Shown here in pieces: positions 14,509 through 34,266 of a DNA stretch of 34,514 nt. This stretch comes from a virus. How positions within the stretch are numbered: the first letter of the stretch is position 1; the number at the start of each line of letters is the position of its first letter. Where the stretch lies: positions 1 through 34,514 of the IMG/VR virus record IMGVR_UViG_3300044630_001269. One strand, given 5' to 3'. Below the pieces are notes generated by a model. It was given only the letters and a program-made list of their open reading frames with translations, was not told the origin of the DNA and did not search any database. The translations under genes were made by a program, and so were the position numbers.

Positions 14509-14883
14509 ATGTCAGCACATAAGCCAAAAAAGGAAAACGCAAGCCTGATTCGCAACCTTGCCGGGATTGGAGTCCCGTTGAAGATGATTGCGTCCCAAAT
14601 CGGCATCGATGAAAAGACGCTGCGAAAGTATTACGACGAAGACATCGACATCGGCCAAGCCAAGGCTACCACCGAGGTTGCACGCAGACTTTACGATATC
14701 GCCATGGGAGACACGAAGGAATCTTTGACCGCATGCATTTTCTGGCTGAAATGCCGGGCGCGATGGTCAACCCTCGACGGCCCGGAGGTTCAAGTTAATG
14801 TCCAAAACAATTCAATCACAACAATTGCCGACAGTGAAGAAGTTAAACGATTCAAAAAGCAATGGGAAGCAATTGACGCCTAG
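14509..14883 (+). CDS. Terminase small subunit
   Basis: A 124-residue protein with an N-terminal helix-turn-helix: LIRNLAGIGVPLKMIASQIG followed by IDEKTLRKYY. Then come KATTEVARRLYDIAMGD and ACIFWLKCRARW, the pattern of small terminase subunits. These bind the packaging start site on the concatemer and regulate the large subunit. The gene overlaps the large subunit by 86 bases if the latter starts at 14798, or by 11 bases if it starts at the TTG at 14873. It follows the minor head gene by two bases, so both are probably one transcript. Confidence 0.82.
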   Translation: MSAHKPKKENASLIRNLAGIGVPLKMIASQIGIDEKTLRKYYDEDIDIGQAKATTEVARRLYDIAMGDTKESLTACIFWLKCRARWSTLDGPEVQVNVQNNSITTIADSEEVKRFKKQWEAIDA

Positions 14884-16228: not shown

Positions 16229-16275
16229 ACTATGGCTTGCCAATTGGAATTTAATATGTTAATCGAAAACTTCAC

Positions 16276-17964: not shown

Positions 17965-18202
17965 GCAATTGAGAGATGTGGCGGGTGAATGGCTCGCCCC
18001 GGTTGATCAGGTTTTAGCCGATCTGATGGATAAGTCGCAGCGCATGACTATCGGCGCATTTGTCCGGGAGGTCGAGCAGGTGATCGAGCGCATCCCGCAG
18101 ATGTATGGGATGCTTAATGCTCAGGCGCTGACATCGGCGCTTGAGGATGAAATTGGCAAGGCGATGCTGAAAGGAATTGAGGATGGCATTGAAGACAGGT
18201 AA
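17954..18202 (+). CDS. Small head-associated protein following the portal
   Basis: An 82-residue, mostly helical, acidic protein (QLRDVAGEWLAPVDQVLADL, VEQVIERIPQMYGMLNAQAL). Its sequence resembles the tail segment found at the end of some DUF935-type portals, as if a portal C-terminal domain were encoded by a separate frame. It overlaps the portal by 11 bases and the next gene by 20 bases. It could form part of the portal or portal-adaptor interface. This is inference from sequence similarity by eye and context. Confidence 0.5.
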   Translation: MTDEQLRDVAGEWLAPVDQVLADLMDKSQRMTIGAFVREVEQVIERIPQMYGMLNAQALTSALEDEIGKAMLKGIEDGIEDR

Positions 18203-18800
18203 ATCATTCATCACGATTGAGGCGACTGGTCTGGATGAGGCTAAGTTAGCGGCATTGAAGTTGGCTACCCCAGCTGTCCGCCGGGCCGCTGTATTACAGG
18301 GTGGTGAGGATGCTATCGAAGAGATTCGCAAGTATTACGCCATGGCTGGGCGGACAAAGTGGGTTAATCCGTCCCTGCCGACTCATGGCCCGGGGCGTGA
18401 GATGACAAGGTGGTGGGAGGGAACTGCTCGAGGTTGGAGTTTATCGCAGCCGAATAATAACAAGGTCACATTCAGTAATTCGACAATTGGTTTCGCCCAT
18501 AAGGTTACGGGTGGCGTGATTCGGGCAAAGCGAAAGCGATCGCTGACGATACCAATCGTTCCTGAAGCTCACGGAAAAACCGCGAAGGAATACTCAAACC
18601 GGGTTAGTCCTTTGTTCCGGGTCAAAGGTGTGTTGGCCGAAGCGGATCCAAATGCACCTAACGGAATCCGCGCAATCTATGCTCTCAAGAAATCAGTAAC
18701 CCATTCGCCATGGAAGAATGCCCTGCCGCCTGAGCAGTCATATACCGATGCATTTTTGAATGGTGCGCTTGATTACCTTATATCTCAATTCGATAGTTGA
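18183..18800 (+). CDS. Phage virion morphogenesis protein (Mu gpG-like)
   Basis: A 205-residue protein. I place the start at the ATG at 18183 (MALKTGKSFITIEATGLDE); the TTG at 18177 is an alternative. The blocks RRAAVLQGGEDAIEEIRKYY, EMTRWWEGTARGWSL, GFAHKVTGGVIRAKRKRSLT and PIVPEAHGK follow the pattern of phage virion morphogenesis proteins of the gpG (tail completion) family, which act at the head-tail joint or in tail completion. The location between portal and protease genes fits this. It is followed by the protease with a short gap. The family call is moderate. Confidence 0.65.
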   Translation: MALKTGKSFITIEATGLDEAKLAALKLATPAVRRAAVLQGGEDAIEEIRKYYAMAGRTKWVNPSLPTHGPGREMTRWWEGTARGWSLSQPNNNKVTFSNSTIGFAHKVTGGVIRAKRKRSLTIPIVPEAHGKTAKEYSNRVSPLFRVKGVLAEADPNAPNGIRAIYALKKSVTHSPWKNALPPEQSYTDAFLNGALDYLISQFDS

Positions 18801-18805
18801 CATTT

Positions 18806-19819
18806 ATGGCTTTATATGATTATCTCCCCTCGATGTTTCGCAGTTCCGAGATCGTAACCGCTGCAATCCAGTCTGAGCTATCAGACTTGGCCGGATCGAT
18901 TGTCTATCTCCCCGAGGGGCAGCATCGGATCAATGCGACTGTCGGAGGTAAGGCTAAATCAGTTGATGTCCTAGTTGATTCCCGAGTTGCTGCTTCATTC
19001 TCTGAAGACCTCAACAAACGATTTGAATCTAATGTCCGCCCATTCGCCGGATTCGACCACAAGCAAGGCGCTGCATCATTCATCCCCAAGGAATTCCGCT
19101 ACGAAGATGGCGTTGGTCTTGTGCTTGATGTCGAATGGACTGAAGCCGGACGCAAGGCTGTTGAAGGCCGCGATTACTCATATTTTTCCCCTACTTTCCT
19201 TCTCTCCAAAGATGGCGTTCCGATCGGCCTCGCAAAGCGTGGTGAAATTGGTTCTCTGGTAAATGATCCAGCATTTGAGGAAATCCCGCGCATTGCCGCA
19301 TCTCACAACGAACAAATTGATATGACCGAACAACTGATCGAATTGGGTCTGGTTGAGGCGAGCGAATCGCCCGATACCGCACTCGAAACCGCAAAGGCAA
19401 ATCTTGCCGCTCTCCGTGAGTCGGCATCGATGGCCGAACAAGTCGAAGCCGCCAATGTCGAAAAGAAATCCGCCGAGGATAAACTTGCTGACATGGAAGC
19501 TGCATACGCCAAACTGAAATCGGAATACGAAGACATGAAGAAGCAACTTGGTGACAAGGCCATGGCTTCCGCTGATCTCGTAATCGATGAAGCAATCAAA
19601 GCCGGACGCATCGCTCCTCAAGATGAGGATGCCAAATCGTTCTGGAAAACCGCAATTCTCGCTGATGAAAAAGCTGCCAAGGTTCTCGCATCGCTCCCGG
19701 GCAATGAAGCCATTAACGGAGCTACGATCCTTGCTGGTCGCATCGAAGAAACCCCTGCTGTTGAACTGACCGGGCTTGCTCGCGTCGAGGCAGCATTCAA
19801 AGCACAACAATCCAAATAA
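18806..19819 (+). CDS. Prohead protease with internal scaffold (Mu I-like)
   Basis: A 337-residue protein in two parts. Residues 1-170 have the layout of the Mu I-type protease (RPFAGFDHKQGAASFIPKEF, followed by GRDYSYFSPTFLLS and the AKRGEIGSLVNDPAF block). From residue 173 an acidic, coiled-coil-rich segment (EAANVEKKSAEDKLADMEA and following) resembles a scaffold. An in-frame ATG at 19322 could start a separate 165-residue scaffold product, as Mu does with gpZ. The start at 18806 is chosen over a TTG at 18797. The protein should assemble and then mature the capsid shell. Codon use becomes C-ending from here to about 21.2 kb, as in highly expressed genes. Confidence 0.75.
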   Translation: MALYDYLPSMFRSSEIVTAAIQSELSDLAGSIVYLPEGQHRINATVGGKAKSVDVLVDSRVAASFSEDLNKRFESNVRPFAGFDHKQGAASFIPKEFRYEDGVGLVLDVEWTEAGRKAVEGRDYSYFSPTFLLSKDGVPIGLAKRGEIGSLVNDPAFEEIPRIAASHNEQIDMTEQLIELGLVEASESPDTALETAKANLAALRESASMAEQVEAANVEKKSAEDKLADMEAAYAKLKSEYEDMKKQLGDKAMASADLVIDEAIKAGRIAPQDEDAKSFWKTAILADEKAAKVLASLPGNEAINGATILAGRIEETPAVELTGLARVEAAFKAQQSK

Positions 19820-19828
19820 CACAAATAT

Positions 19829-20767
19829 ATGCCTAATAACACTACGCTACTCGATCTCGCCAAATTGAATGGTGCTGATCCTGTTGTCGGTCTGATCGAG
19901 GAAGTGGCTACCGCTTCTCCTGAAGTTGTGACCATCCCCGCCCGCACGATTCGCGGAACCAGTTACAAGACTGTCGTTCGCAACTCGCGCCCAACCGTTG
20001 CATTCCGTTCCGCTAACGAAGGAACTGCCGCAACCAAATCCAACTTTGCTGAGCGTCTCGTCGAAGCATTCATCCTCTCCGCTCGCATCGAAGTCGATAA
20101 GGCTGTTGCTCGCGGTTACGAGGACGGCCCAGAAGCTCTCCAAGCAATCGAAGGCGCAGGCGTCATGCGTGCCGCTCTCTCGACTGTCGGCTCGCAAACC
20201 ATCTATGGTCGCAGCGCAGGCGCAAAGGGATTCATCGGCCTCCAAGAATTTATCACTACTTTCGGTGACGAACTTGTGGTTGATGCTGGTGGTACGACTT
20301 CTGGAACTGGTTCATCGGTTTACGCCATCAAGGCCGGCGCTCAAGGCGTTCAGTACGTCTACGGCAACGGCACTAGCTTTGACCTCTCGCCATTCCGCGA
20401 AGGTGACGCAACAGACGCATCCGGTAATCGCTTTGCCGCTTACATCGCTGACCTTACCGCTTGGGTTGGTCTTCAGTGCGTCAACAAGTACGCGATTGGC
20501 CGCTTGAAGGATTGCACCGCTGACTCCGGCAAGGGCGTGTCCGATGCCAAGATCGCTGAGCTTCTTTCGAAGTTCCCAGTTGGTGAGCGCCCAACCCATC
20601 TCTTGATGAGCCGCCGTTCCGCATTCCAACTCCAGACGAGCCGCACTATGACTCCAAGCACCAAGCAGGAAGCCTTTACTGGTATCCTCCCCGGTGTCCC
20701 AACCGAATCGTTCGGCATCCCGATCATCATCACCGACTCGATCGCTGATAACGAGGCATTGAGCTAA
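19829..20767 (+). CDS. Major capsid protein (HK97-fold type, tentative fold)
   Basis: A 312-residue protein beginning MPNNTTLLDLAKLNGADPVV. The block TIPARTIRGTSYKTVVRNSR, then PTVAFRSANEGTAATKSNFA and ARGYEDGPEALQAIEGAGVM, followed by KGFIGLQEFI, is the pattern of phage major capsid proteins related to the P2-like/GP17 groups. The position directly after the protease/scaffold gene is the classic one for the shell subunit. The codon bias and the terminator-like hairpin after the next gene suggest high expression. The fold is inferred from the gene's place and pattern, not modelled. Confidence 0.85.
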   Translation: MPNNTTLLDLAKLNGADPVVGLIEEVATASPEVVTIPARTIRGTSYKTVVRNSRPTVAFRSANEGTAATKSNFAERLVEAFILSARIEVDKAVARGYEDGPEALQAIEGAGVMRAALSTVGSQTIYGRSAGAKGFIGLQEFITTFGDELVVDAGGTTSGTGSSVYAIKAGAQGVQYVYGNGTSFDLSPFREGDATDASGNRFAAYIADLTAWVGLQCVNKYAIGRLKDCTADSGKGVSDAKIAELLSKFPVGERPTHLLMSRRSAFQLQTSRTMTPSTKQEAFTGILPGVPTESFGIPIIITDSIADNEALS

Positions 20768-20795
20768 TCCTAACCTCTAAATAGATAATACGACA

Positions 20796-21194
20796 ATGGC
20801 CTTTGAATTCAATCGCAATCAACAAGATGCCACCTACACCTCGTCGGTGGCAATCGCCCAAGCTGGTGCTAACTCCGCAGTCTTTGACCTTGAACAGGTT
20901 TTCGCTGGTGACATCGAAGAGGTTGTAGTGGAAGTATCTGCTCCAGCCGCATCTGGCATTACCAGCACTAAGGTTCTTACCTACACCTTCAAAGACAGCG
21001 CTGATGGCGTGACCTTTGCCGCTCTTGATCCAGCAGTCGCAACCACCCAAACCGCTACCGGATCTGGCGTTGCCGCCAAGTCGGTTCGCTTTCGCCTTAA
21101 CCCGGCCTGCCGCCGCTATGTGCGAGTCGAACAGACATCGGATGCGACCGCTGGAACCTTTAGTGGTTCCTTTGTGACCAAGCTCCTCTTCTAA
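20796..21194 (+). CDS. Putative head decoration protein
   Basis: A 132-residue protein rich in Ala, Thr and Ser, beginning MAFEFNRNQQDATYTSSVAI. It reads as a beta-sandwich: alternating strands (DIEEVVVEVSAPAA, VLTYTFKDSADG, SVRFRLNPACRRYVRVEQ) and a hydrophobic end (FVTKLLF). It shares the C-rich codon use of the capsid gene, which suggests high copy number. It sits between capsid and connector, typical of a decoration or stabilising protein. The family is not recognised, so the role is inference from context. Confidence 0.6.
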   Translation: MAFEFNRNQQDATYTSSVAIAQAGANSAVFDLEQVFAGDIEEVVVEVSAPAASGITSTKVLTYTFKDSADGVTFAALDPAVATTQTATGSGVAAKSVRFRLNPACRRYVRVEQTSDATAGTFSGSFVTKLLF

Positions 21195-21211
21195 TAGTGG
21201 GTTGCTAATCG

Positions 21212-21261
21212 TGCCGCTGGTCTGGGGTTTGTTCATTTCCCTCGGATCAGCGGCAATTTTC
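21212..21261 (+). terminator. Terminator-like hairpin after the capsid genes
   Basis: A 16-bp stem with three G-U wobbles (TGCCGCTGGTCTGGGG at 21212-21227 with 21239-21255), an 11-base loop, and ATTTTCTAAAT as a weak T-rich tail. It may terminate or attenuate transcription after the most highly expressed genes, or protect the mRNA 3' end. Confidence 0.65.
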
Positions 21262-21271
21262 TAAATATAAT

Positions 21272-21724
21272 ATGGCATGGGCTGAACTGACATTTGCAGG
21301 ATTACAGGGCCGACTTGGTTCTGATGAAATCGCTGCATTGCTCGCTGAATCTGCTGCACCTGAAGCAAAGGTGACGGAGGTTCTGACCCATGTTGCATTG
21401 GACATTGCCAGCCGGGTCAATACTGGGCGCAGGAAGCGAGGATTGCCGCCTGTGGTCAATTCTAGTGTCTATGTGCCACCCGGGGCGCAACGTCATGCCT
21501 ATGCCCTTGCAAGGCGTTTGCTGTCCGATGCTTTTCCTTCCTTGGCTGAATTCAATGGCGATGATCGCAAATCATCCATTGAGGAAGCCGAAAACTACTT
21601 GGATGACCTAGCCAAGAATGATGTTGATTCGGATGATCCCGGGGCATCTTCTTTCTCATATTCCAGCAATTCCTCATTCCGCTACGGAGGATCCCGGGTT
21701 ATGGATTTCTCCACCTCACCATGA
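21272..21724 (+). CDS. Head-tail connector protein (DUF1320 / Mu gp36-like)
   Basis: A 150-residue protein. The N-terminal helical part (WAELTFAGLQGRLGSDEIAA, LTHVALDIASRVNTGRRKRG) and YVPPGAQRHAYALARRLLSD resemble the DUF1320 family of Mu gp36, which binds between portal and tail. The C terminus is a Ser-rich flexible tail (SSFSYSSNSSFRYGGSR). The ATG follows a TAAATATAAT sequence and no Shine-Dalgarno. The end overlaps the next gene by 4 bases (ATGA). Confidence 0.75.
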   Translation: MAWAELTFAGLQGRLGSDEIAALLAESAAPEAKVTEVLTHVALDIASRVNTGRRKRGLPPVVNSSVYVPPGAQRHAYALARRLLSDAFPSLAEFNGDDRKSSIEEAENYLDDLAKNDVDSDDPGASSFSYSSNSSFRYGGSRVMDFSTSP

Positions 21725-22200
21725 GCATCATTCGTCAGATTGTGGAAAGCATAGCCAAGAGATTGGCGGATCATGATTATTTTCGCACCGTGCCGAAGAT
21801 TCCTGTTCTGGTTGAGGATCAAAAGGATGTGGAGAAATCCATTCTTAATGCAATGCAGACCGCTGGCGCGTTTGTATTGATCAATTTCGATTCCGCAGAT
21901 ACCGACTCCCCGGATACACCCGGCCCATATCTTAACAATTCCTCATTTAAAGTCACCATATCTGAGATTCCATCATTGTGGCGATCACGTGGAAATCACC
22001 AACCATCTTGCACTGAAATCGCTGAAGCGGTTTGCAGGCTTATTCACCATCATCAACCGCTGGATACCGAAGGGCTTGCGTTGTCCGGCGGGGTTTTATT
22101 GTTCGATTCAATGTCTCAACAGGCGAATGAGTCGATGCTTCAGCAAGTCATCACATTCACAATACCAATCGGTTTAACCAATACTGATCCAGAAAGATAA
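21721..22200 (+). CDS. Tail terminator-like protein
   Basis: A 159-residue protein with the order of a tail terminator or head-tail joining protein: SIIRQIVESIAKRLADHDYF, FVLINFDSADTDSPDTPGPY, SFKVTISEIPSLW and QQVITFTIPIGL. Its place after the connector and before the tube protein fits. In this group of phages such proteins cap the tail tube and join it to the head. The call is based on secondary structure pattern and synteny rather than on clear sequence similarity. Confidence 0.5.
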   Translation: MSIIRQIVESIAKRLADHDYFRTVPKIPVLVEDQKDVEKSILNAMQTAGAFVLINFDSADTDSPDTPGPYLNNSSFKVTISEIPSLWRSRGNHQPSCTEIAEAVCRLIHHHQPLDTEGLALSGGVLLFDSMSQQANESMLQQVITFTIPIGLTNTDPER

Positions 22201-22206
22201 TATATT

Positions 22207-23118
22207 ATGGCAACATTTGATCGCACCACCATTGTTCGCGGCCCATGTAAGATTACTTACGACTCGCAGGTATTTTATAGCAAAGCTGGAGTAACTCTTA
22301 AAATGGTTAATTCCACATTTGATAAGGCTGCCGATGCATTCGGTCTTCTTTCAAAGGCAAAAACTGATTTTCAAGTCATCATTGAATTTGAACCAGTCGG
22401 TGAGATTGAGTCATTCGCTGTTCTTTTCCCTTATGGTAATTTAGCAATGGGATCATCAATTTATGGTACAACTGATAAATCTCTTACAATTACAGCACCC
22501 GATCATACTTATGTTATAAATAATGCGGCAGTCACTCAAATGCCGAATATTCGTTTTACTTCTAATAATACAGCATTCGGCCCGGTTCAATTTACGGGGA
22601 TACTTGACAAGGGAGGAAATCCTAGTGCGCTTGCGGATTATTATTCGGTTGGGGCTGGTGGATCAATTGGGACTAATTTTGATGCCAACAAATTGGTAAC
22701 AGCGCCATATACTGGAAGACTTGGATCATCATTAACATTCTATTCAGTATCAGGATTCGAGGTTTCATTCGATCTTGGTCTGGATCCGGTTATGGTTGAT
22801 GGAATCGGAACTGTTGACATGAGGCTTAATAGTATTGGTTGTAACATTAGTTGCACTCCGGTTGGAGTCGATAGCGAGTCTTTTGACACATATTTTAGTT
22901 CTCTCGATACCGGAGAAAACTTAGCTTCTTCTACCCTTGATATTAGTACAACTACTGTTGGTGGTCTTAATTTCGATTGCCTAGGCGTTGAGGTAATTGA
23001 TGTTGAAAAGGACTTTAGCCCAAGTTCAAACAGAATTGGCCAACTTAATTTGACAGCGAAGCGAACATTCGCATCTGGCGTTCCTGCCGCATTGTTCACC
23101 GTTGCCGTTGTCGCATAA
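22207..23118 (+). CDS. Major tail tube protein
   Basis: A 303-residue protein, all beta in appearance: KITYDSQVFYSKAGVTLKMV, QVIIEFEPVGEIESFAVLFP, IRFTSNNTAFGPVQFTGIL and the C-terminal TAKRTFASGVPAALFTVAVV. The size, the GP-Phe-Thr-G block and the position before the tape measure fit a tail tube subunit that forms the channel for DNA. From here the base composition falls and AT-ending codons dominate. The stop overlaps the next start by one base (23118). Confidence 0.75.
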   Translation: MATFDRTTIVRGPCKITYDSQVFYSKAGVTLKMVNSTFDKAADAFGLLSKAKTDFQVIIEFEPVGEIESFAVLFPYGNLAMGSSIYGTTDKSLTITAPDHTYVINNAAVTQMPNIRFTSNNTAFGPVQFTGILDKGGNPSALADYYSVGAGGSIGTNFDANKLVTAPYTGRLGSSLTFYSVSGFEVSFDLGLDPVMVDGIGTVDMRLNSIGCNISCTPVGVDSESFDTYFSSLDTGENLASSTLDISTTTVGGLNFDCLGVEVIDVEKDFSPSSNRIGQLNLTAKRTFASGVPAALFTVAVVA

Positions 23119-23915
23119 TGTACGCCGCCGCATTCATAGGCAATAAGATCATCGATCTTGCCGGATGGGATCAAGGCCCGGGTGCTGAGACATCGAATCT
23201 TAATATTTCATACAGCAACCAGTTCCAATCCGTCTCGTATGTAGGTGGGACTTGGGGGCGTCAATTCTGGCGTCCCGGCACAATGGCGACCGTGTCGTTT
23301 GATAGCCGGCTTGATTTTAAGGACTTTTCCTCCAGCGATTACCAAAGGCAAGTCACTCAATTCCTGCTAAAGCTTCCGGGTTATTTCTCAAATCAATCAA
23401 ATTGCACATTCAAAATATGCCAACCATTTGGGTATGGAAACGGCATAAGAGACAGGCAGATTGAAAGAGCAGTTGCGGTTGGAACTGTAACAACCGCAGG
23501 AACTGCAAATCTTGTTGTTACATATAATGGACTGGATGGAAGCCCAGATACAGTGTCTTTTTCTGTTGCAGCCGGGGATACTGCTTCGGATTGGGCTGAA
23601 AGGGCTAGGAGTGCGCTATCAAGAGATTACAATATAGCGTCATATTTTAGTGTATCAGGCACAGGAACTGACATAAAGCTAACAAGAAGAAGTTCATTTG
23701 CGGAGCAAGATAATACTTTTAATATAGCTATAAATAAAGGTACTTCAGTTGGCATTGTTGATGATCCAACATCGGTAAATTCTCAAGCAACTGGATCGTG
23801 GTCACTAATGTCACAAATCACATTCTATGACGCAAATGTATCCGTTGCCGCATCGCAAATTGGCACATCTGTATTGCTTAATACATCCGTAACCGGACGA
23901 TTAGTCGCCCCATAA
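23118..23915 (+). CDS. Tail protein with an inserted middle domain
   Basis: A 265-residue protein. The N-terminal 110 residues (WDQGPGAETSNLNISYSNQF, WGRQFWRPGTMATVSFDSRL) and the C-terminal 50 (QITFYDANVSVAASQIGTSV) look like one beta-rich unit. Between them, residues about 115-220 form a second domain: VGTVTTAGTANLVVTYNGLD and the block GDTASDWAERARSAL, then SVSGTGTDIKLTRRS. This inner unit resembles a small beta domain found in tail proteins. It probably belongs to the tail tube or its tip. It overlaps the tube gene by one base and ends two bases before the tape measure. Confidence 0.55.
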   Translation: MYAAAFIGNKIIDLAGWDQGPGAETSNLNISYSNQFQSVSYVGGTWGRQFWRPGTMATVSFDSRLDFKDFSSSDYQRQVTQFLLKLPGYFSNQSNCTFKICQPFGYGNGIRDRQIERAVAVGTVTTAGTANLVVTYNGLDGSPDTVSFSVAAGDTASDWAERARSALSRDYNIASYFSVSGTGTDIKLTRRSSFAEQDNTFNIAINKGTSVGIVDDPTSVNSQATGSWSLMSQITFYDANVSVAASQIGTSVLLNTSVTGRLVAP

Positions 23916-23916
23916 T

Positions 23917-25428
23917 ATGGCATCAAAAAAGGTCAACATTGACATCAGCACAACGGCTAATACGGCTGGTGCTACGCAAGCTGCTGCCGCGATGGATAAG
24001 CTGGAAACCTCCAGTACAAAAGCTGCAGCAGCATCTACGGTTGCATCTACGGCGACAAGAAGGGCTGGAGATGTAGCACTTCAAGCAGGATATCAGGTTC
24101 AAGACTTTGCAGTACAGGTTGGTGCTGGAACCAGTGCATTTACAGCATTTGCCCAAAACGCTCCGCAGTTCTTGAGTGTATTTGGCCCCAAAGGTGCTGT
24201 CGTTGGTGCATTGGTTGCAGTCGGAGCGGTTGCAGCCAAGGTGTTCTTGGATATGGGGAATGATGCCAAATCGGCATCGGAGAAAGCTGAAGAATTAGCT
24301 GATACGATCGACCAGATCGGCAAGAATGCCGCCGCTGCAATTCGTGAGGATATTGATTTTGGCAAATCCAAATTAGAACAAGCCAAGACAGCCGCACAGA
24401 ATTTTGCTGATGAGGTAAGCAATGCGGCACAAAATCAAATAGATTACAACGCGACCGTTCTGGAATCGTTCAATAACCTACTTACCGCAGAGAGAACGCT
24501 CCGTGATGTAAAGGGAGAAACAATCAGCAAGGTAAAGGATCTAGCTGCCGAGGAAAAAGCGGCGGCGGAGGCTAGAGCAGCACAGGTTCAGCTTCAGATT
24601 CAATCCGAACAATTAAAGCTGCAGGCCGCAGAGGATTCCGTAGAGATCGAAAAGCAAGCACTAGCCGAGGCGCGTGTTCAGAAAGCAGAGAAAGAAGCAT
24701 TGCTTCAAACTGAACGGAATAGTTTACAGGTTTTGCGTGATCAGCGTGATGCGCTGGAAGAGCAGGCGAAGCAGAGGATGGGTATATTGCAAGCTGCCGC
24801 TTCATCATTTGCTGGTGAGGGTGGATTTCCGGGGCAGGCAACCGCTGGAGCTAAAGCCGCTCAAGCGCAATTGGATACTGGCGCGGTAGCTGGGCAGATG
24901 TCGGTAATCGAAAACCGCATCAGCGAGCTTGAAAAGGCCGTATCTTCAACTGGTGAGTTAAGCCAAGCGGTAGAAACTGCAACTCAAAGCCTCCAACAAT
25001 CCGAGTCTGCATTACGCCAGACGCAATCTGATGTCTCAACATCCATCGCATCCATTGCTGAAATTGCGGCATCTGAGGATGTAAAAGCTCAGGCTAAAGC
25101 CGCAGAGGAAAAGGCGAAAGCATTTGCGACTGAGGTTGAGGGAATGATCGCTGGCATTGAGCCAGCAAATCAGCAACAGGCAACGGCTCTCAGCAGTCTT
25201 AATACGGCCTTACAAGATCAGCGCATCACTCAGAATGAAATATCTACGACTACTGCATCTCTTGCGACATTATCTCCATTGATCCGGCAATCGATCACAA
25301 ATAATACCACTAGCGTAACTGAATTGATTTCGATTATGAATTCGTTTCAGAATCAGACAAATGCTATTCAAAGACAAATCTCCGACTTGCGTTCTCGCGT
25401 AAATAGCCTAGCATTGCCGCAAAGATAA
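23917..25428 (+). CDS. Tail tape measure protein
   Basis: A 503-residue protein, almost entirely helical. The N-terminal block LQAGYQVQDFAVQVGAGTSA and FTAFAQNAPQFLSVFGPKGA is typical of tape measure proteins, and a hydrophobic stretch (VVGALVAVGAVAAKVFLDM) could enter the membrane at DNA ejection. From about residue 115 to 500 it is a long Ala/Gln/Glu-rich coiled coil. By the usual rule of about 0.15 nm per residue this predicts a tail of roughly 75 nm. It determines tail length during assembly. The gene follows the tail protein by one base. Confidence 0.85.
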   Translation: MASKKVNIDISTTANTAGATQAAAAMDKLETSSTKAAAASTVASTATRRAGDVALQAGYQVQDFAVQVGAGTSAFTAFAQNAPQFLSVFGPKGAVVGALVAVGAVAAKVFLDMGNDAKSASEKAEELADTIDQIGKNAAAAIREDIDFGKSKLEQAKTAAQNFADEVSNAAQNQIDYNATVLESFNNLLTAERTLRDVKGETISKVKDLAAEEKAAAEARAAQVQLQIQSEQLKLQAAEDSVEIEKQALAEARVQKAEKEALLQTERNSLQVLRDQRDALEEQAKQRMGILQAAASSFAGEGGFPGQATAGAKAAQAQLDTGAVAGQMSVIENRISELEKAVSSTGELSQAVETATQSLQQSESALRQTQSDVSTSIASIAEIAASEDVKAQAKAAEEKAKAFATEVEGMIAGIEPANQQQATALSSLNTALQDQRITQNEISTTTASLATLSPLIRQSITNNTTSVTELISIMNSFQNQTNAIQRQISDLRSRVNSLALPQR

Positions 25429-25432
25429 AAAC

Positions 25433-28195
25433 ATGCCAGTAAATTGGACAATAGCAGGCGAAGCGGGACAGGGTTGGAATGAAAACCCAACAGATTTGGC
25501 ATTTCGTAATATCAGTTCTGCCAAGCTCGACTTCAAGAGCCTTGATGCCGATCAACTGACATTTAATGTTGTTGTTGAAGATGCCACAACGGAGTCATTT
25601 GTTGCTACCCCTACTATTACGCCGGATTCATCTGTTCGCATTTCATCTCCATTAACTGTCACGGTTTCATGCGAAACCGCAGGCGCAACGCTGCATTACA
25701 CTACAAATGGAACAAACCCGGATACCTTAAGCCCAACCGTTGCAAATGGAGGAAACTTGACATTCTCCATACCAAGAACCCTAAAGGTTCTGGCTGTTAA
25801 ACCCGGATTGCTCGATAGCGACATCAATGTCGCTGAATACAAACTTGAGGATATTGTAGCCACTGGTGGAACCACAAGCGATGCGGGTGGATTTAGAACA
25901 CACACATTTCTATCATCCGGCAGCTTGGTTGTGACCAATGGGGGTGTCATTGAATACCTAGTTGTTGCTGGCGGCGGATCCGGTGGCGAAAATTCCTCGA
26001 ACAGATCCGGTGGAGGCGGTGGCGCTGGCGGATTCAAGACCGGAACGATGACAATAAACCCCGGCACATACGCTATTAGCGTTGGAGCCGGGGGGATGGC
26101 GTTAGCTCCACAGACTTCCGCATCGAATGGCGGCGGATCATCGATCGGCACATTGGTAACGACAACTGGCGGTGGAGGTGGCGCAAGCGTATCAGGAACA
26201 ACCGCAGTAGCTGGTCGCACAGGTGGATCCGGCGGCGGCGGAACTTGTGGCGGAGCAGGTGGGACTGGATCCTCTAGTCAGGGTAATAATGGCGGCGGAT
26301 CGGCATCAACTACATCCGGCACTGGCGGCGGTGCGGGTGCGGCTGGAACTACTGTCAGCGTGGTAACTTCAAATGGCGGGGGCGGAACGGCATCGAGCAT
26401 GACCGGGGTTTCCGTGACATATTCAGTTGGTGGTGGGGTTAGGGATCCATTAGCTACTGGAAGCAGTTCGATTGATAGATCTGTTATAGCAAATACCGGG
26501 CGCGGCGGGGCAGGGGCGTTTAAGAGTTCAACAATCAGAATCGGCGCAAACGGATCGTCTGGAATTGTAGTTATAAAATATGCGCTGGTTCAACCATCAA
26601 AACCAAAGAATATACAATCCACGGCATCAACTCTTCCTACATTAAGGCAACAAATTGTTTTATATAGAGAACTTGATATTTTCTTCTATGGATGGGTCAC
26701 AAATATCCGCAGTATAATTTCAAATGGATCCCATGAGCATCAAGTTACAGTATCTGGGCCATGGTGGTTCTTGGAGAAAGTTCCTTTTACATCAGACATA
26801 CAGGACGGATCAGGAAAAATTGGAGAGCGGATTTCATATGTTTTCGGGACGCCATCATCTGGTCAGCAATTAAAAACTAGCATTGAACAAGCGATCAATC
26901 GAGCAAATCAGATAGGATGCCCGATTGCACCAACTAGCGGAGGTTCATCCGTTGCAGCGATGCACACATTCCCGCGCATTACATTGAATCAATCGACATG
27001 CGGTCAAGTTATTGCCGAACTTGTGCGATTGGTTCCAGATGCGATGACATATTTTGATTATTCAGTATATCCACCAGCATTGAAGGTTGTTAGAAGGCCA
27101 ACATGCGCCACAACCACATTCAATCAAGACACATCACCGATCACATCGATTGATATTAACCCGATGATTGAGCTTGAAGTTGAGCAGGTGACGCTTCCAT
27201 CCGTAACGAGAAATACAATTGGTTCAACGGTATTTAATGTACAGGAATCTGGATCTGATCTATCTGGTACAGATATAACAAAACGGCAGGTAATTACAAT
27301 ATCCGGCCCGGAGCTAGATACATTCTTGCCGAATGATTTGTTTGACTCGCAGACTATTACGACAAGCGGAAGCATTTCTAATTTGGCGCATGATTCTGAT
27401 GAGGCCTGTAAATTGGCCGCAAGGAAATATGGCCGTAGCAGATTGCCAATTGCAATATATGCCCAAGGAGTAACGCTTTATAGCGCAAGACAAGGCTCAT
27501 ATAGCCTGCCACCAAGCTATTATACAACAGACGCATTTACCATTGGAGGTTATTCTATTAAAGACACATCTGGTAATTCTTTGGATGGATGGTCTATTTT
27601 AACATCTGGTGTCCCGGCTGATTGGACTGGTATTACATATAAGCCATGTATTGTTAGCGGTACTATGTGGATAAAAGCTACTCGCGATGAAGGCTCATAT
27701 GGTACAGCATCATCATTTCCCTTACCGGATTACATATACGAAGCAGATTTTAAATTTTTAACATCTGGATACACAGAGATCACCTCCTTTGGTGATTACG
27801 TCGAATACTATACAAAACCATTTAAATTTTCAGGATTCGCAACACCGGGAAATGCAGGATCACAAACTGTTTACAAACCCGCCGATTACTCATTCATCAA
27901 CCCACCCACCGGACTTGCTGAATTTCTTCGTTCAACACAGAACTGGGTTCCGTATGAAGGATCAATCCAGCTTGAACAAGAAGATGTTGGCGCGACTCGG
28001 TATGTCGGGAAAAAGATTAACATAATTAACTCACTCCCTGCATTCTCGACCATGGGCGCATTGGTGTCCGGTGAATCGCTGGAGATTGAATCCGGGCGAA
28101 CAACTATTAACCTTGGCGCTCCGGCCCGGAATGATTACCGAACGCTGGTGGACAAAATCCGCAAGACATCGCAAGATAACATTGTTTACGTCTAA
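25433..28195 (+). CDS. Tail hub/baseplate protein with inserted CHB_HEX_C-like and glycine-rich adhesin module
   Basis: A 920-residue protein. Residues 1-55 and about 385-920 form a tail-hub-like protein (QLTFNVVVEDAT; LRQQIVLYRELDIFFYGWVT and NGSHEHQVTVSGPWWFLEKV). Between them lies an insert with two domains. Residues about 57-140 (SSVRISSPLTVTVSCETAGA, LHYTTNGTNPDTLSP) match the chitobiase/beta-hexosaminidase C-terminal type. Residues about 145-385 are glycine-rich (VVAGGGSGGENSS, NGGGSS, GGGGGAGG), ending in GANGSSGIVVIKYAL, which resembles phage receptor-binding polyglycine sandwiches. The insert splits the hub sequence between a beta strand and the loop before the next, so the surface loop probably displays the adhesin at the tip. 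It is the largest gene of the window. Confidence 0.75.
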   Translation: MPVNWTIAGEAGQGWNENPTDLAFRNISSAKLDFKSLDADQLTFNVVVEDATTESFVATPTITPDSSVRISSPLTVTVSCETAGATLHYTTNGTNPDTLSPTVANGGNLTFSIPRTLKVLAVKPGLLDSDINVAEYKLEDIVATGGTTSDAGGFRTHTFLSSGSLVVTNGGVIEYLVVAGGGSGGENSSNRSGGGGGAGGFKTGTMTINPGTYAISVGAGGMALAPQTSASNGGGSSIGTLVTTTGGGGGASVSGTTAVAGRTGGSGGGGTCGGAGGTGSSSQGNNGGGSASTTSGTGGGAGAAGTTVSVVTSNGGGGTASSMTGVSVTYSVGGGVRDPLATGSSSIDRSVIANTGRGGAGAFKSSTIRIGANGSSGIVVIKYALVQPSKPKNIQSTASTLPTLRQQIVLYRELDIFFYGWVTNIRSIISNGSHEHQVTVSGPWWFLEKVPFTSDIQDGSGKIGERISYVFGTPSSGQQLKTSIEQAINRANQIGCPIAPTSGGSSVAAMHTFPRITLNQSTCGQVIAELVRLVPDAMTYFDYSVYPPALKVVRRPTCATTTFNQDTSPITSIDINPMIELEVEQVTLPSVTRNTIGSTVFNVQESGSDLSGTDITKRQVITISGPELDTFLPNDLFDSQTITTSGSISNLAHDSDEACKLAARKYGRSRLPIAIYAQGVTLYSARQGSYSLPPSYYTTDAFTIGGYSIKDTSGNSLDGWSILTSGVPADWTGITYKPCIVSGTMWIKATRDEGSYGTASSFPLPDYIYEADFKFLTSGYTEITSFGDYVEYYTKPFKFSGFATPGNAGSQTVYKPADYSFINPPTGLAEFLRSTQNWVPYEGSIQLEQEDVGATRYVGKKINIINSLPAFSTMGALVSGESLEIESGRTTINLGAPARNDYRTLVDKIRKTSQDNIVYV

Positions 28196-28200
28196 AAGTC

Positions 28201-29484
28201 ATGGCCCAATTTTCAACCAACAAAGATGCATTTGGAAATGTCACCGCTGAAACTGGCGCGGTTATTGATATCTCACAATCCACGACATTTTACAAATATA
28301 TCGGCGATACGGGAACCGCTGCTGTATTAGTGGATCCAGTATCGAATACCGCAAGATTCGCCCCAAGGTTCGCTGGCGGGTCAGGTCGAAACATCCTCAT
28401 TCGGAACAATGTCGTTCCGGGATCAACCCCATATGGTTGGATGTTTCCAGACGCATCCGAATCATGGTTGGCTGAGGATGGGGTTTTCTTCGCGAGCGTG
28501 AATGGATCCGGTGAAATTGAATTCTCCGATGACACAGACATCATTGCGGTTTCCGATCCATATCCATTCCCGACATCTGGATATAATATCGGTGCAGCAA
28601 ATCAAACTTACGGGTGGGGTGGTACTTTCCCTCCGGGCGGCGGGCCGGGAACTAGGACAATTACGCTAGGATCGGGAATTGGTGAGGTTGCATTCAAATC
28701 TGATGGGTTTATTTCTGGAGCATCAACATTCCGCTTTGAGGTTGTATGGAATGGAACAACTGTGATCGATACCGGGAGCCTTGCAAGCGGATCATCTTTC
28801 TCCCATTCATTCATCAAAACAACAGCATCCCCGGCAACAATATCGGTGACGCTTACTAGTGCATCAACAACTGGATCCGGTGATGTGGAAATCGGCAGCA
28901 ATGAAGCCAGAACTGATTTCACGGCAGACTCAACTTCATATGGTGATGGGTTGAATGGAGGAACACCATTTACTCTGAACTGCACTTACGAGAATGGCGG
29001 CGGAGAAATCTCGGCACAGATCACGTCCTACACGTTATTCGGTGATGATGATCCTGTGGTATTTACGCAGTCGAAATATGACTGGCAGAATTGGACTGAT
29101 CCGACCTCAACGTATTTCGTCAATATCGACGCGACCGGGCTGGCTTCAATCAGCGATGCAACAGACGTGATTGCTGAGCGAGTAGAGTTGCTGAATTTGG
29201 ATCCCACCGGATCATATGCAGCTACCGCATATGGCAAGACAACTTACAATGTTGGCGAGGATTTCAATATCTCAATTCTCCCAATTGAAAAAAACTCACA
29301 GACGCTCGTGACGTATCTTGCAATGGATGTCACCGGGACTGTGTTGGATGACGTGCGCGGCCCATTCTCTGACCCTGCGCTTCCGGCTAATACGTCCACT
29401 GTGAAATACCTGCCAATTTCGACATCTGATGTTACAACTGGGGTGATTACGCAGCTTTTAGAGGGAACCTTGGTATTGAGATAA
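28201..29484 (+). CDS. Structural tail/baseplate protein, beta-rich
   Basis: A 427-residue protein, mainly beta strands with many Ser, Thr and Gly. It includes WLAEDGVFFASVNGSGEIEF, TRTITLGSGIGEVAFKSDGF, TFRFEVVWNGTTVIDTGSLA and SYAATAYGKTTYNVGEDFNI. The inner part resembles carbohydrate-binding-like or Ig-like tail modules. Its position between hub and fibre genes places it at the tail tip. No enzyme motif. The start at 28201 follows the hub gene by five bases. Confidence 0.55.
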   Translation: MAQFSTNKDAFGNVTAETGAVIDISQSTTFYKYIGDTGTAAVLVDPVSNTARFAPRFAGGSGRNILIRNNVVPGSTPYGWMFPDASESWLAEDGVFFASVNGSGEIEFSDDTDIIAVSDPYPFPTSGYNIGAANQTYGWGGTFPPGGGPGTRTITLGSGIGEVAFKSDGFISGASTFRFEVVWNGTTVIDTGSLASGSSFSHSFIKTTASPATISVTLTSASTTGSGDVEIGSNEARTDFTADSTSYGDGLNGGTPFTLNCTYENGGGEISAQITSYTLFGDDDPVVFTQSKYDWQNWTDPTSTYFVNIDATGLASISDATDVIAERVELLNLDPTGSYAATAYGKTTYNVGEDFNISILPIEKNSQTLVTYLAMDVTGTVLDDVRGPFSDPALPANTSTVKYLPISTSDVTTGVITQLLEGTLVLR

Positions 29485-29511
29485 TCCTTGCCAAATCGCA
29501 TCGGTTATGGT

Positions 29512-29862
29512 ATGCAAATCGGCGCAATGGCGGGAACAAATCTTAATGCCTATTCCGGCGAAACATTGAGCTTATCCTTTTCCTGCAAGGACGAGGCTGG
29601 CGCGGCATTCAACCTCACCGGATATTCCGCCCGGGCCAAGGTTCGTTCCACAATCGCATCCAGCGTTGTGGTGATCGATCTCGCCCCGGCTATCCCAACT
29701 CCGGCTAATGGTATCATTTTGGTAAGCAAGACCGATGAGCAGACCGCAGCGGTTGCACCGGGAACCTATTACTGGGATCTCGTCCTAGATACCCCGACTG
29801 GCGGGGTGATTTTCATTTCTGGCGGAACCATTAAATTTCGTCAAATCGCATCCCGATCATGA
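29512..29862 (+). CDS. Baseplate-associated protein (BppU-like domain, tentative)
   Basis: A 116-residue protein, starting at the ATG at 29512 (an in-frame TTG at 29488 would give 124 residues). The segment FNLTGYSARAKVRSTIASSV, then GTYYWDLVLDTPTGGVIFIS and GGTIKFRQIASRS, matches small tail proteins whose N-terminal unit resembles BppU baseplate domains and which anchor fibres. It overlaps the fibre gene by 4 bases (ATGA). The exact family is not certain. Confidence 0.6.
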   Translation: MQIGAMAGTNLNAYSGETLSLSFSCKDEAGAAFNLTGYSARAKVRSTIASSVVVIDLAPAIPTPANGIILVSKTDEQTAAVAPGTYYWDLVLDTPTGGVIFISGGTIKFRQIASRS

Positions 29863-31163
29863 GCCTAGAAATCGTCGAAATCAGATCATTTTCAGGCCCA
29901 TCCGTTGTGGAGGTTCAGGGCAGCGATGAACCATCGGTTGTCCTGATCAATCAAGGCCCGGCTGGTGACTCTTCTACCGCCCCGATCTCGACCGCTACCG
30001 ATACCGCCCTGATCGGGTACATTTACGGAAATGGAACAAAGATTGCTGGCGCGACTGCTGCCACTTCAGAAGGAACGCCTAATACTTTGATGCTTCGCAG
30101 TGCCGCTGGTACTGTTTCAATAAACGGAACAACAGGCGATACCTTTGGTCTTGCCGTCTCATCTCCTTCCATTTATGCAATTCTTGGAAATGGAACTGGT
30201 AGCGCAGAAGGAGTGAGGGCATTATCAGTATCAGGAACCGGAGTGAATGCTTCTTCAAGCTCCGGAACAGGATCGCTTTCACAATCTGGCATGGGGGCGG
30301 GGTCAAGAAGTGTTACATTTTCTGGTTCTTATCATCATCAATTCGGCGGGAATCCGGGAGGCTTTATTGGCGATGACCGATCCGCTGTCGAGCGTATTCG
30401 CGGCTGGTTCGTCTGGTTCTTTGGGTCTTTCACTGGTCGCCTGAAGACCGCTGACATCACTGCTAACCGTGAGTGGACGCTACCTAACGCATCGGGATTT
30501 GTTGCGCTCACGCAAAATGCAAATGGCGCTGTAACCAATACGGAATTCTACGCTAAAGCAGCGGTTCCGATTACTGCTGGACAGGCGGTTTATATTTCCG
30601 GCGCATCCGGGGCGAACAAGATCATCACGCTTGCTCAGGCTAATACTGAAGCGACATCCAGCAAGACGATCGGCCTAGCATTGCAGAATCTTGCAACCAA
30701 TGGCTTTGGCTATGTTGTGAGCGAGGGCGATGTCACCGGGTTGACAATTAACCTTGGCTCCGGGCATGGCGTATCGGAGGGGGATCCGATTTGGCTGTCC
30801 CCGACTACCCCGGGCGGATTGGTTTTCGGCTTGGCCAACAAACCATCAGCACCGAATCATTTGGTGTTCTTGGGTTATGTCACCCGAATCAATGGCAATA
30901 CGCTTACAGAGATTTTTGTTAAGGTTCAGAATGGCTTTGAGCTAGGAGAACTGCATAATGTTGCCATCAATGGCGTTGCGGATGGCCAAGTCTTGACATA
31001 TGAATCCTCGACCGGGCTATGGAAGAATAAGCCAACAACAACCACCAAAGCGACAACTGGCAACCCCGCATCCGGCATCGAGGGGCAAATCTGCATCAAT
31101 ACTTTCGACAATAATGTTAAAATATACGCTGAAGGAAGCTGGCGTCAAATAGCTTCTTGGTAA
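29859..31163 (+). CDS. Tail fibre protein
   Basis: A 434-residue protein with an N-terminal anchor (PSVVEVQGSDEPSVVLINQG, PAGDSSTAP), beta-repeat-rich middle segments (SLSQSGMGAGSRSVTFSGS; RLKTADITANREWTLPNASG) and a C-terminal region typical of fibres: FELGELHNVAINGVADGQVL, then a knob GQICINTFDNNVKIYAEGSW. The N-terminal GPAG-type element often precedes fibre shafts. It should be the main or a secondary receptor-binding fibre. It shares overlapping ends with the baseplate-associated gene. Confidence 0.75.
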   Translation: MSLEIVEIRSFSGPSVVEVQGSDEPSVVLINQGPAGDSSTAPISTATDTALIGYIYGNGTKIAGATAATSEGTPNTLMLRSAAGTVSINGTTGDTFGLAVSSPSIYAILGNGTGSAEGVRALSVSGTGVNASSSSGTGSLSQSGMGAGSRSVTFSGSYHHQFGGNPGGFIGDDRSAVERIRGWFVWFFGSFTGRLKTADITANREWTLPNASGFVALTQNANGAVTNTEFYAKAAVPITAGQAVYISGASGANKIITLAQANTEATSSKTIGLALQNLATNGFGYVVSEGDVTGLTINLGSGHGVSEGDPIWLSPTTPGGLVFGLANKPSAPNHLVFLGYVTRINGNTLTEIFVKVQNGFELGELHNVAINGVADGQVLTYESSTGLWKNKPTTTTKATTGNPASGIEGQICINTFDNNVKIYAEGSWRQIASW

Positions 31164-31173
31164 TACTAAATAT

Positions 31174-31437
31174 ATGGATCCAATCGAATCTAATCCAATT
31201 GCAACTGCTGAATTCGGTCAGCGTGGCGTGATTGTTGAAACTGGCACAACCGCTCTTACTGGTCTTGATGCCTACGCAATCCAAATGCTTGCCGATACGA
31301 CATTCGCAACGCTGACTGAGGATAACCGGACTGGTGATGCCATGACGGGATTTTCAATCCCGGCTGGCGTTGTGATGTTCGGTAACTTCCGCGCAGTCAC
31401 GCTTACGAGCGGTGCAATTCGGATTTATCTCAAATGA
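31174..31437 (+). CDS. Small tail-fibre-associated protein
   Basis: An 87-residue protein. Residues such as ATLTEDNRTGDAMTGFSIPA followed by GVVMFGNFRAVTLTSGAIRI form a compact beta unit that occurs in small tail proteins next to fibres. It may cap or trimerise the neighbouring fibre. Its end overlaps the lectin-like gene by 4 bases (ATGA). No motif for enzyme activity. Confidence 0.6.
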   Translation: MDPIESNPIATAEFGQRGVIVETGTTALTGLDAYAIQMLADTTFATLTEDNRTGDAMTGFSIPAGVVMFGNFRAVTLTSGAIRIYLK

Positions 31438-32966
31438 AGCTAGGATTGCTCAATACCCTGACTGATGGGCGCGGTGGAGGCATTAGTGGCGATGGCCTCG
31501 CCCTCGACCTCCAGTTCGCGGCTGACAAGACTCTGACCGCGAGGCGTGGGCCGACACCTGTCTTTACACGGTCGAGCGGAGATAATGGCGGGACAACATA
31601 TTTTGGGCCGCTAGTAGATTTTGACGTGGTAACCGCATTCTCAACAACAGGAATTTCTAATGGGCGGGCTTCGTGGTTCAAATCATATGAAGGCACAGAT
31701 ATAACGATATCTTACACCGGAGCTAGATGGAGCGTTGTGACTGTAGACAACGGAGACGAGGTCACATACCTAGCTGCGCCCGGTGGCGAGTGGCGACCAG
31801 ACCAAGCCGACTGGAGTGGTGAGGCTTTCTCAGTAACAACTAGCAGCACCTTCGGCATTGTAAAGGCAGCGAACAACGAACCCCGTTTCGACCACAACCC
31901 CGTGTCACCATTTGCGTGCCGTGGCTTGCTGATCGAGGAGTCGAGGACTAATGCGATTACTGGTTCTAACGCGTTTAATACTTGGACGCTAGGAAACTCT
32001 ACTGTTGCGGCATCATCTGTAGTAACTCCAGAAGGGACGGCAGACGCATGGAAAGTTGTAGAAGACTCGCTTTTAAATATTCACACAGTAACACGTGGTT
32101 TTACTGCTGTATCAGGAACTACTTACACCGCATCAGTGTGGTTGAAGTCGGCAGAAAACGGGTTTGCATTTGTTGGACTTTCTGGTGGCGGATTCTTTCC
32201 AACATTCATTTCCGTTAATCTTTCCACTGGGGCGGTTTCCACTGCATTAGGGACACCTATTGGAGCCTCATCAGTGAGTCACTCCAACGGATGGTGGAGA
32301 GTTTCATTCTCATTGGCAGCTACAGCGTCTCTGTCATCAAGCATAGACATCAGACTATCGCGTGATGGCAACTGGGCGAACCGCTCATATTTAGGGAATG
32401 GAGTGAACGGAATGTATGTTTACGGTGCACAAGTAGAAGCAGGTTCCTTCCCCACCTCCTACATCCCGACGACGACTGGCACATTGGCTCGCGGCGCGGA
32501 TGTGTGTACGATTACAGCAGCGGATTTTAATAGATTCTACAATTCCACATCTGGAACACTGTTGAGCGAGGCATCAATTTCCAACTTGATTGGTAATAAC
32601 CGAGGGATTGTTCAGATAGACAATGGCACGAATGAATCTATTCTACGTCATGTGTACTCGTTTGGTGATGGTGGATTCAGAAGTATTATTAGAGCAGGTG
32701 GTGACACCCCAACAGTACTTTCAACTATTTTGGGTACAGCGTCCACGATTCAAAAAAGGATCATAGCCTACGAAGGAACAAGTTTTGCATCCGTAACAAA
32801 TGGAGGCGTAGTTGCTACAGCAACACGCACTATGCCAACTGGATTAAACGCGATGAGAATTGGGAACCTTACTGATGGTTCATTCTACCTAAGTGGTCAC
32901 ATTGCCGCCATCCGCTTTTACAAGAAACGCCTGCCCAACGCAAAAATTCAAGCACTCACGGTATGA
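31434..32966 (+). CDS. Tail adhesin with concanavalin/CBM-like domain
   Basis: A 510-residue protein. The block PRFDHNPVSPFACRGLLIEE followed by SRTNAI is a common linker in phage tail adhesins. After it comes a carbohydrate-binding-like beta domain (TPEGTADAWKVVEDSLLNIH, GTTYTASVWLKSAENGFAFV, then SFPTSYIPTTTGTLARGADV) and a C-terminal LamG/ConA-like unit (SGHIAAIRFYKKRLPNAKIQ). An extra unit around residues 65-135 (GTDITISYTGARWSVVTVDN) is inserted in the N-terminal part. It probably binds a surface glycan. It overlaps the neighbouring gene on both sides by 4 bases. Confidence 0.75.
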   Translation: MKLGLLNTLTDGRGGGISGDGLALDLQFAADKTLTARRGPTPVFTRSSGDNGGTTYFGPLVDFDVVTAFSTTGISNGRASWFKSYEGTDITISYTGARWSVVTVDNGDEVTYLAAPGGEWRPDQADWSGEAFSVTTSSTFGIVKAANNEPRFDHNPVSPFACRGLLIEESRTNAITGSNAFNTWTLGNSTVAASSVVTPEGTADAWKVVEDSLLNIHTVTRGFTAVSGTTYTASVWLKSAENGFAFVGLSGGGFFPTFISVNLSTGAVSTALGTPIGASSVSHSNGWWRVSFSLAATASLSSSIDIRLSRDGNWANRSYLGNGVNGMYVYGAQVEAGSFPTSYIPTTTGTLARGADVCTITAADFNRFYNSTSGTLLSEASISNLIGNNRGIVQIDNGTNESILRHVYSFGDGGFRSIIRAGGDTPTVLSTILGTASTIQKRIIAYEGTSFASVTNGGVVATATRTMPTGLNAMRIGNLTDGSFYLSGHIAAIRFYKKRLPNAKIQALTV

Positions 32967-33702: not shown

Positions 33703-34266
33703 ATGACCTATACGGAAATTTACCATCTGCAAAAACGGATCGGAACCACCCCTGATGGATTCTGGGGGCGCAAGTCAATTGCTGCATGTCAGACGCATCT
33801 TAAATCCTTGATGCCATTGCAAAATCCATGGCCTCGATCGGATCAGGCGAGTCTAACTGAGTTTTATGGCAATGCCGGCGATGAGAACAAACTGGAATCA
33901 ATTGACGTATCCGGCCTTGGCGTGAGATATGATGGGCAAAAAATCAAATCTATCCGCTGCCATCGCAAAGTTGCTGATTCCCTCCATCGAGTCCTAGTGG
34001 CAATCAATGGCGGATCATGCGGATGGATCCTCGAGCAATACGCTGGATGTTATAACAACCGCCCGATGCGCGGCGGATCGCTTCCATCGCTTCACGCTCG
34101 GGGCGCGGCAATTGATCTGGATCCTGCGCCAAATGGCAATCATCGAGCTTGGCCGATTAACGCGACCATGCCGATTCAGGTCATGGAAGAATTCGCCAAA
34201 GAGGGGTGGTTAGCTGCCGGGGCATTCTGGGGGCGTGACGCAATGCATTTTCAAGCAACGAGATGA
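33703..34266 (+). CDS. Endolysin, M15 family peptidase (D,D-carboxypeptidase type)
   Basis: A 187-residue lysin. The N-terminal 35 residues (IYHLQKRIGTTPDGFWGRKS) resemble a peptidoglycan-binding fold. The catalytic part has SLHARGAAIDLD at 129-140 with H131 and D138 as zinc ligands (the HxxGxAxD pattern) and WGRDAMHFQ with H182 as the third ligand. This is the VanY-type M15 peptidase arrangement, which cleaves D-Ala bonds or peptide cross-links of the cell wall. It lies directly after two small membrane proteins, a lysis cassette order, and before the phosphoesterase, whose start overlaps its stop by 4 bases. The signal for export is absent, so a holin should release it. Confidence 0.85.
   Translation: MTYTEIYHLQKRIGTTPDGFWGRKSIAACQTHLKSLMPLQNPWPRSDQASLTEFYGNAGDENKLESIDVSGLGVRYDGQKIKSIRCHRKVADSLHRVLVAINGGSCGWILEQYAGCYNNRPMRGGSLPSLHARGAAIDLDPAPNGNHRAWPINATMPIQVMEEFAKEGWLAAGAFWGRDAMHFQATR

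Follow-up and report, generated by a model that had tools for sequence, protein, structure and literature searches.

The window, meaning the whole 34,514-nucleotide stretch of viral DNA analysed here, carries a 920-aa open reading frame at positions 25433 to 28195 (+), which begins 5 nt after the end of the tape measure gene, in a gene order common to the relatives of this phage. The features of the locus were assigned as follows.

23917 to 25428, plus strand: tape measure protein (PHROG 1538, tail length tape measure); its 3' end is the 5' breakpoint of an allele swap with the near-sister phage L005
25433 to 28195, plus strand: predicted gp27/gp44-type tail hub gene with an inserted module, 920 aa (open reading frame; hub fold of an insertless homologue; 5 nt after the tape measure gene)
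25433 to 25588, plus strand: N-terminal strands of the hub core, residues 1 to 52 (alignment to insertless hubs)
25589 to 26632, plus strand: inserted module with linkers, residues 53 to 400 (missing at the same point in about 50 of 63 distinct homologues)
25601 to 25852, plus strand: chitobiase-C/Fn3-associated-like domain, residues 57 to 140, Pfam match 70 to 131 (PF13290, E 5.7e-9; PF13287, E 1.3e-5; BT0459, Z 8.0)
25865 to 26587, plus strand: glycine-rich domain, residues 145 to 385, Pfam match 170 to 383 (PF21722, E 1.2e-14; Pam3 fibre, Z 8.3; 30% glycine)
26633 to 27382, plus strand: resumption of the hub core, residues 401 to 650, conserved (alignment; conservation between relatives)
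27383 to 27862, plus strand: hypervariable hub domain, residues 651 to 810 (53% aa identity to L001, with flanks at 97%; drop in nucleotide identity)
27863 to 28192, plus strand: conserved hub C terminus, residues 811 to 920 (alignment); includes the 3' breakpoint of the L005 allele swap near codon 870

Relatives were gathered through the upstream gene at 23118 to 23915 and then with a hub profile in IMG/VR, giving a 28-row alignment; a wider survey, in which a conserved 303-aa upstream protein (independent of the hub) served as a second route beside the hub profile, yielded 63 distinct hubs. An AlphaFold2 model of the insertless homologue from L005 (pLDDT 82.7) matched contractile injection system hubs (Pvc8/Afp8), the MuSo2 43-kDa protein, Mu gp44, VgrG, and T4 gp27 in the PDB, with a best Foldseek E value of 6e-10 and VIA Z scores of 20.7 (9gtr_q), 17.3 (Mu gp44, 1wru), and 15.5 (T4 gp27, 1k28). 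Given these fold matches and the position of the gene directly after the tape measure gene, the model-based assignment of the product as a gp27/gp44-type tail hub is sound. No match was obtained when the hub was compared with cultured phages by tblastn or when genome contigs were searched with the hub profile, and the hub core alone returned nothing useful from PHROG and Pfam.

The insert comprises about 345 residues (approximately residues 53 to 397 in the window) between two strands of the hub core. Insertless homologues read LTFTITPESLTSAVIPDLRQEMILYRDGV at this point, and the window reads LTFNVVVEDAT, then the insert, and then TLPTLRQQIVLYRELD; in the nearest insertless group (561 to 570 aa), LTFTITPESLTSA joins VIPDLRQEMILYRDGV directly where the window has the extra residues. 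Positions 1 to 54 and 52 to 575 of a core HMM fell on window residues 1 to 54 and 397 to 920, respectively, and the insertion point in the L005 model was a loop between strands 41 to 46 and 62 to 67, in the first part of the hub. Within the insert, the matches to CHB_HEX_C_1 (PF13290) and Gly_rich_2 (PF21722) reached 36.2 and 55.3 bits against curated Pfam cut-offs of 22 and 24.3, and the latter match spanned family positions 14 to 225 of 226. PHROG 2295 (unknown function) covered residues 60 to 388 in one unbroken stretch (E 5e-46), which suggests that the same two-domain pairing is present in other phage proteins. The glycine content of the glycine-rich stretch was 30%, versus 8% in the hub core; the glycine positions of this domain were invariant across unrelated proteins, and some loops of the insert varied by indels between relatives.

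The insert was present in 10 of the 63 distinct hubs (the window, L001, L006, L011, L013, L022, L026, L028, L044, and L046) and clearly missing at the site in about 50; the two most remote hubs, L053 and L054, did not align across the site. Because most relatives lack the insert, the hub does not need it. The original prediction, which was made from the letters of the window, had described a tail hub split at this point by a chitobiase-C-like and a glycine-rich domain; it was right about the hub (Z 20.7 for the L005 model, and the gene follows that for the tape measure), the split point (insertless alignment and core HMM), and both domains, and homologous hubs clearly do not all carry the same segments. 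The 10 insert-bearing hubs came from different metagenomes, and a 910-aa UniProt protein, A0A6J5N658 ("Chitobiase/beta-hexosaminidase C-terminal domain containing protein"), appears to carry the insert too, so the insert is not an assembly artefact. The same architecture thus seems to be in UniProt already, under a name that gives only a domain; no description of this architecture was found in the open-access literature searched.

In a tree of core sequences stripped of the insert, the seven hubs with a complete insert lay on one side of a branch with 100/100 support, which was present in 100% of the bootstrap trees, and the insert label needed a single change. The module tree agreed with the core tree on every starred branch. 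By parsimony, because the remote hubs are without the insert, the simplest account is a single gain of the module followed by its inheritance together with the core. Among 43 records searched whole, PF21722 was limited to insert-bearing hubs, and PF13290, present in these hubs, also occurred in two remote records. Elsewhere among viral contigs, Gly_rich_2 was mostly the C-terminal domain of other proteins.

The window and L005 belong to near-sister phages, with 97 to 99% identity in the portal and most capsid-region proteins and nucleotide identities of 90.4% over positions 15116 to 24014 and 91.5% over positions 27859 to 29889. From the tape measure stop codon to about codon 870 of the hub gene, a single piece of 634 nt aligned, at 65.6%; L005 has no insert and has an extra 169-aa gene. 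Since the flanks in L005 are about 90% identical in nucleotide sequence to those of the window while its hub is diverged and insertless, and since L011, also close to the window, has the insert as the window does, hub alleles with and without the insert replace each other at the same locus in near-sister phages. The domain shuffling that had been suggested therefore stands for whole hub alleles, whereas the insertion itself looks like one event that descended with the core. A second exchange was seen inside the hub: compared with L001, nucleotide identity was 92 to 100% up to about residue 630, 48 to 64% over approximately residues 661 to 810, and 86 to 98% thereafter. The hypervariable domain at 27383 to 27862 looks exchanged by recombination, with 53% aa identity between the window and L001 and about 97% in both flanks. 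Tape measure alleles have been exchanged separately from the hub, the window protein being 83% identical to that of L005 and 36% identical to that of L003, the hub of which is 90% identical. The 169-aa gene lies between the tape measure and hub genes (L005, 10483 to 10992) in one group of insertless phages (L005 and also L004, L008, L009, L010, L014, L019, and L020) and had no Pfam or PHROG match. An early pattern, in which all insertless loci had this gene and insert-bearing loci did not, had made it a candidate complement of the insert; this was refuted in the wider set, where most insertless relatives have neither.

Conservation differed sharply along the hub. Amino acid identity between the window and L001 was 100% in the chitobiase-C domain, 97% in the glycine-rich domain, 97% in the core, and 53% in residues 651 to 810; for L011/L013, the insert was at 94 to 95%, the core at 98%, and the variable domain at 82%. 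The dN/dS values for the window versus L001 and L011 were 0.12 to 0.14 for the insert and 0.09 to 0.12 for the core. Across pairs, the glycine-rich domain exceeded core residues 401 to 650 in dN/dS by a factor of about 1.1 to 6 and stayed below the variable domain wherever both were measured, these ratios being rough because several dS values were near saturation. The downstream genes at 29859 to 31163 and 31434 to 32966 were divergent or were not found in the examined stretches of the relatives. Being far more divergent than the conserved insert, the variable hub domain and the downstream tail genes are the better specificity candidates, and fine host specificity more likely lies there than in the insert.

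The terminase was 47% identical to that of Akkermansia phage Chambord, and the portal was 37% identical to that of Akkermansia phage Chantilly; by the terminase and Mu-type portal (PF06074) genes at 14798 to 17964, the nearest cultured relatives are Akkermansia phages. The sole genome match of the conserved 303-aa upstream protein was to a Verrucomicrobiaceae pond MAG (37%). A Verrucomicrobiota host is therefore suspected, and we regard it as a reasonable lead from these sequence relationships. A weak match in phage Chambord (E 0.07) was discarded, as it was short and lay in a gene upstream of the tape measure gene. A probable endolysin is encoded at 33703 to 34266 (Peptidase_M15_4 match, E 2e-6).

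The full-length AlphaFold2 model of the window hub was poor (pLDDT 53, falling to about 25 for residues 220 to 374), which makes any fold assigned to the glycine-rich part tentative; a plain alternative cause of the low values in this stretch is that only nine complete inserts informed the alignment. Foldseek with the full-length model returned nothing at E ≤ 0.001. In VIA, where the typical best Z for unmatched models is 7 to 8, the top match of this pLDDT 53 model for residues 152 to 387 was the Pam3 fibre (7yfw; Z 8.3, rmsd 2.8, 131 aligned residues, 25% identity), and the next was BT0459, which matched residues 53 to 138 (Z 8.0, 26% identity); ALK/LTK glycine-rich domain entries (7nx1, 7lrz, and others) matched the glycine-rich stretch at Z 6 to 7.7. 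When the insert profile was compared with PDB sequences, only chance-level matches were obtained, that to Pam3 (E 5.6) not being significant. These matches are suggestive, not proof, of a resemblance between the glycine-rich part and a receptor-binding fibre domain, that of Pam3 gp24 and then that of ALK/LTK. In Pam3, this class of glycine-rich domain is reported to belong to the head that recognises the receptor (PMC9608196).

We favour, with slightly better than even confidence, the reading of this protein as an "evolved" tail hub with a putative surface-binding module on its side. A gp27/gp44-type hub, presumably a trimer, would lie at the tail end and would carry the two-domain module within its first tube-like subdomain, in one of the loops. 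The glycine-rich domain, of the Pam3 gp24 or ALK/LTK type, would be the binding head, and the chitobiase-C (Ig/Fn3-like) domain would either act as a spacer or bind glycans weakly. With three copies of the module pointing sideways, the hub would gain an accessory contact, probably of low affinity, with the envelope of the host or its glycan coat, made before hub opening. The module would have been acquired once, and hub alleles with and without it have since replaced each other in near-sisters. This reading departs from the original prediction at three points. A position at the tail axis is unlikely, because the hub must let DNA pass and a loop insert in a trimeric hub should accordingly sit outside the tube and project sideways; for streptococcal Tals, an insert within the gp27-like domain has been described as extending far from the trimerisation axis (PMC9437275). 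A host-range role of the insert fits poorly with its 97 to 100% conservation between the window and L001, where residues 651 to 810 fall to 53%. The likeness of the glycine-rich part to a receptor-binding fibre domain was kept, on a low-confidence model, with Pam3 gp24 as the closest analogue found instead of T-even gp38; gp38 was not among the matches listed and is not thereby excluded.

The main rival, which we judge unlikely, is a purely structural role: the module would stabilise the tail tip or serve as a docking site for another tail protein, such as a side fibre, and would make no contact with the host surface. Such a role would suit the purifying selection on the module, which is nearly like that on the core (dN/dS 0.12 to 0.14 versus 0.09 to 0.12), and chitobiase-C and Fn3-associated domains are common in proteins as spacers. 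However, in the near-sister L005, which has neither the insert nor a second copy of the module in the stretch examined, the next gene downstream is retained with 96% aa identity, so the product of that gene does not require the module, and in the model the glycine-rich part resembles a fibre head. It also seems quite unlikely that the module attaches to some widespread polymer (mucus, chitin, or extracellular polysaccharide) and keeps the virion near the host with no host selection; its conservation across lineages, its chitobiase-C homology, and the remote hub with a terminal CBM5/12 chitin-type module all speak for general adhesion of this kind, but the tail-tip position favours host contact instead.

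Less probable still is the version first proposed, which makes the insert the main receptor-binding tip, by which the hub itself would determine host range. The resemblance to receptor-binding glycine-rich fibre heads (PMC9608196), the exchange of hub alleles with and without the insert between near-sister phages, and the excess of glycine-rich over core dN/dS in several pairs (up to about 6-fold) point that way, yet the insert is conserved, is missing from most relatives, and has no hypervariability of the sort expected of a specificity determinant, and residues 651 to 810 and the downstream tail genes vary much more. We consider it very unlikely that the glycine-rich part is a low-complexity stretch that links hub segments without a structure of its own: the very low pLDDT of residues 220 to 374 would agree with a linker, but the full-length match to a curated family (PF21722), the invariant glycines across unrelated proteins, the purifying selection on this part, and the predicted structural match over residues 152 to 387 all argue against it.

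The evolved-hub reading gains breadth from the hubs of L041 (2417 to 5281) and L045 (2420 to 5263), which carry an unrelated module, a DUF5122 beta-propeller of about 370 aa (E 9e-33 and 2e-29, respectively), in a different loop, at core position ~160. The remote hub of L054 (3734 to 7819), of at least 1361 aa, has collagen-like repeats and a CBM family 5/12 domain at its end. It is a tentative and rather doubtful proposal that the tail hub serves this freshwater-type phage group as a plug-in platform, in which different surface-binding modules would occupy different loops and alleles exchanged between near-sisters would switch host or surface range via the hub. The near-sister phages with and without the insert constitute a natural experiment on the role of hub decoration.

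Modules inserted in the gp27-like domain of Tal are known (PMC9437275, PMC7291167), and in the papers considered here, the inserts in tail-tip proteins come from phages of Gram-positive bacteria (PMC9437275, PMC7291167, PMC6669499, PMC10688798). The evolved Tals (PMC9437275, PMC7291167) resemble the window hub in having a gp27-like core with modules inserted inside and insertless relatives; their inserts, however, consist of two lysin domains that separate subdomain 3 from subdomain 4, whereas the window hub has a chitobiase-C and glycine-rich pair between strands of the first subdomain, and the nearest cultured relatives of its phage, unlike the evolved-Tal phages, infect Akkermansia. The evolved Dits of Lactobacillus, lactococcal 936, and streptococcal phages (PMC6669499, PMC10688798, PMC7291167) likewise are conserved tail-tip proteins with a binding-type module in one loop, but Dit is a hexameric ring protein with modules in its galectin domain, and the window protein is a hub for which carbohydrate binding is suggested by domain names. 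The Pam3 tail fibre gp24 (7yfw; PMC9608196), which has been compared with Salmonella S16 gp38 (PMC9608196), also has a glycine-rich domain, and the window domain may have the stacked glycine-rich lattice fold of these adhesins (Z 8.3 and 25% identity to Pam3 over 131 residues, with the pLDDT 53 model); gp24 and S16 gp38 are separate fibre proteins for which a hypervariable tip has been described, whereas the window domain forms an internal part of the hub and the insert as a whole is conserved. The glycine-rich extracellular domain of ALK/LTK, a weak structural match of the glycine-rich stretch (Z 6 to 7.7), belongs to an animal receptor and shares at most a fold class with the window insert. 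As in evolved Dit and Tal proteins, the module lies inside a conserved tail-tip core and is absent from homologues (10 of 63 carry it). The kind of arrangement is thus known from these proteins, and this variant of it is set apart by its fibre-head-type module, by the position of that module in the gp27-like hub, and by the phage group, which is uncultured.
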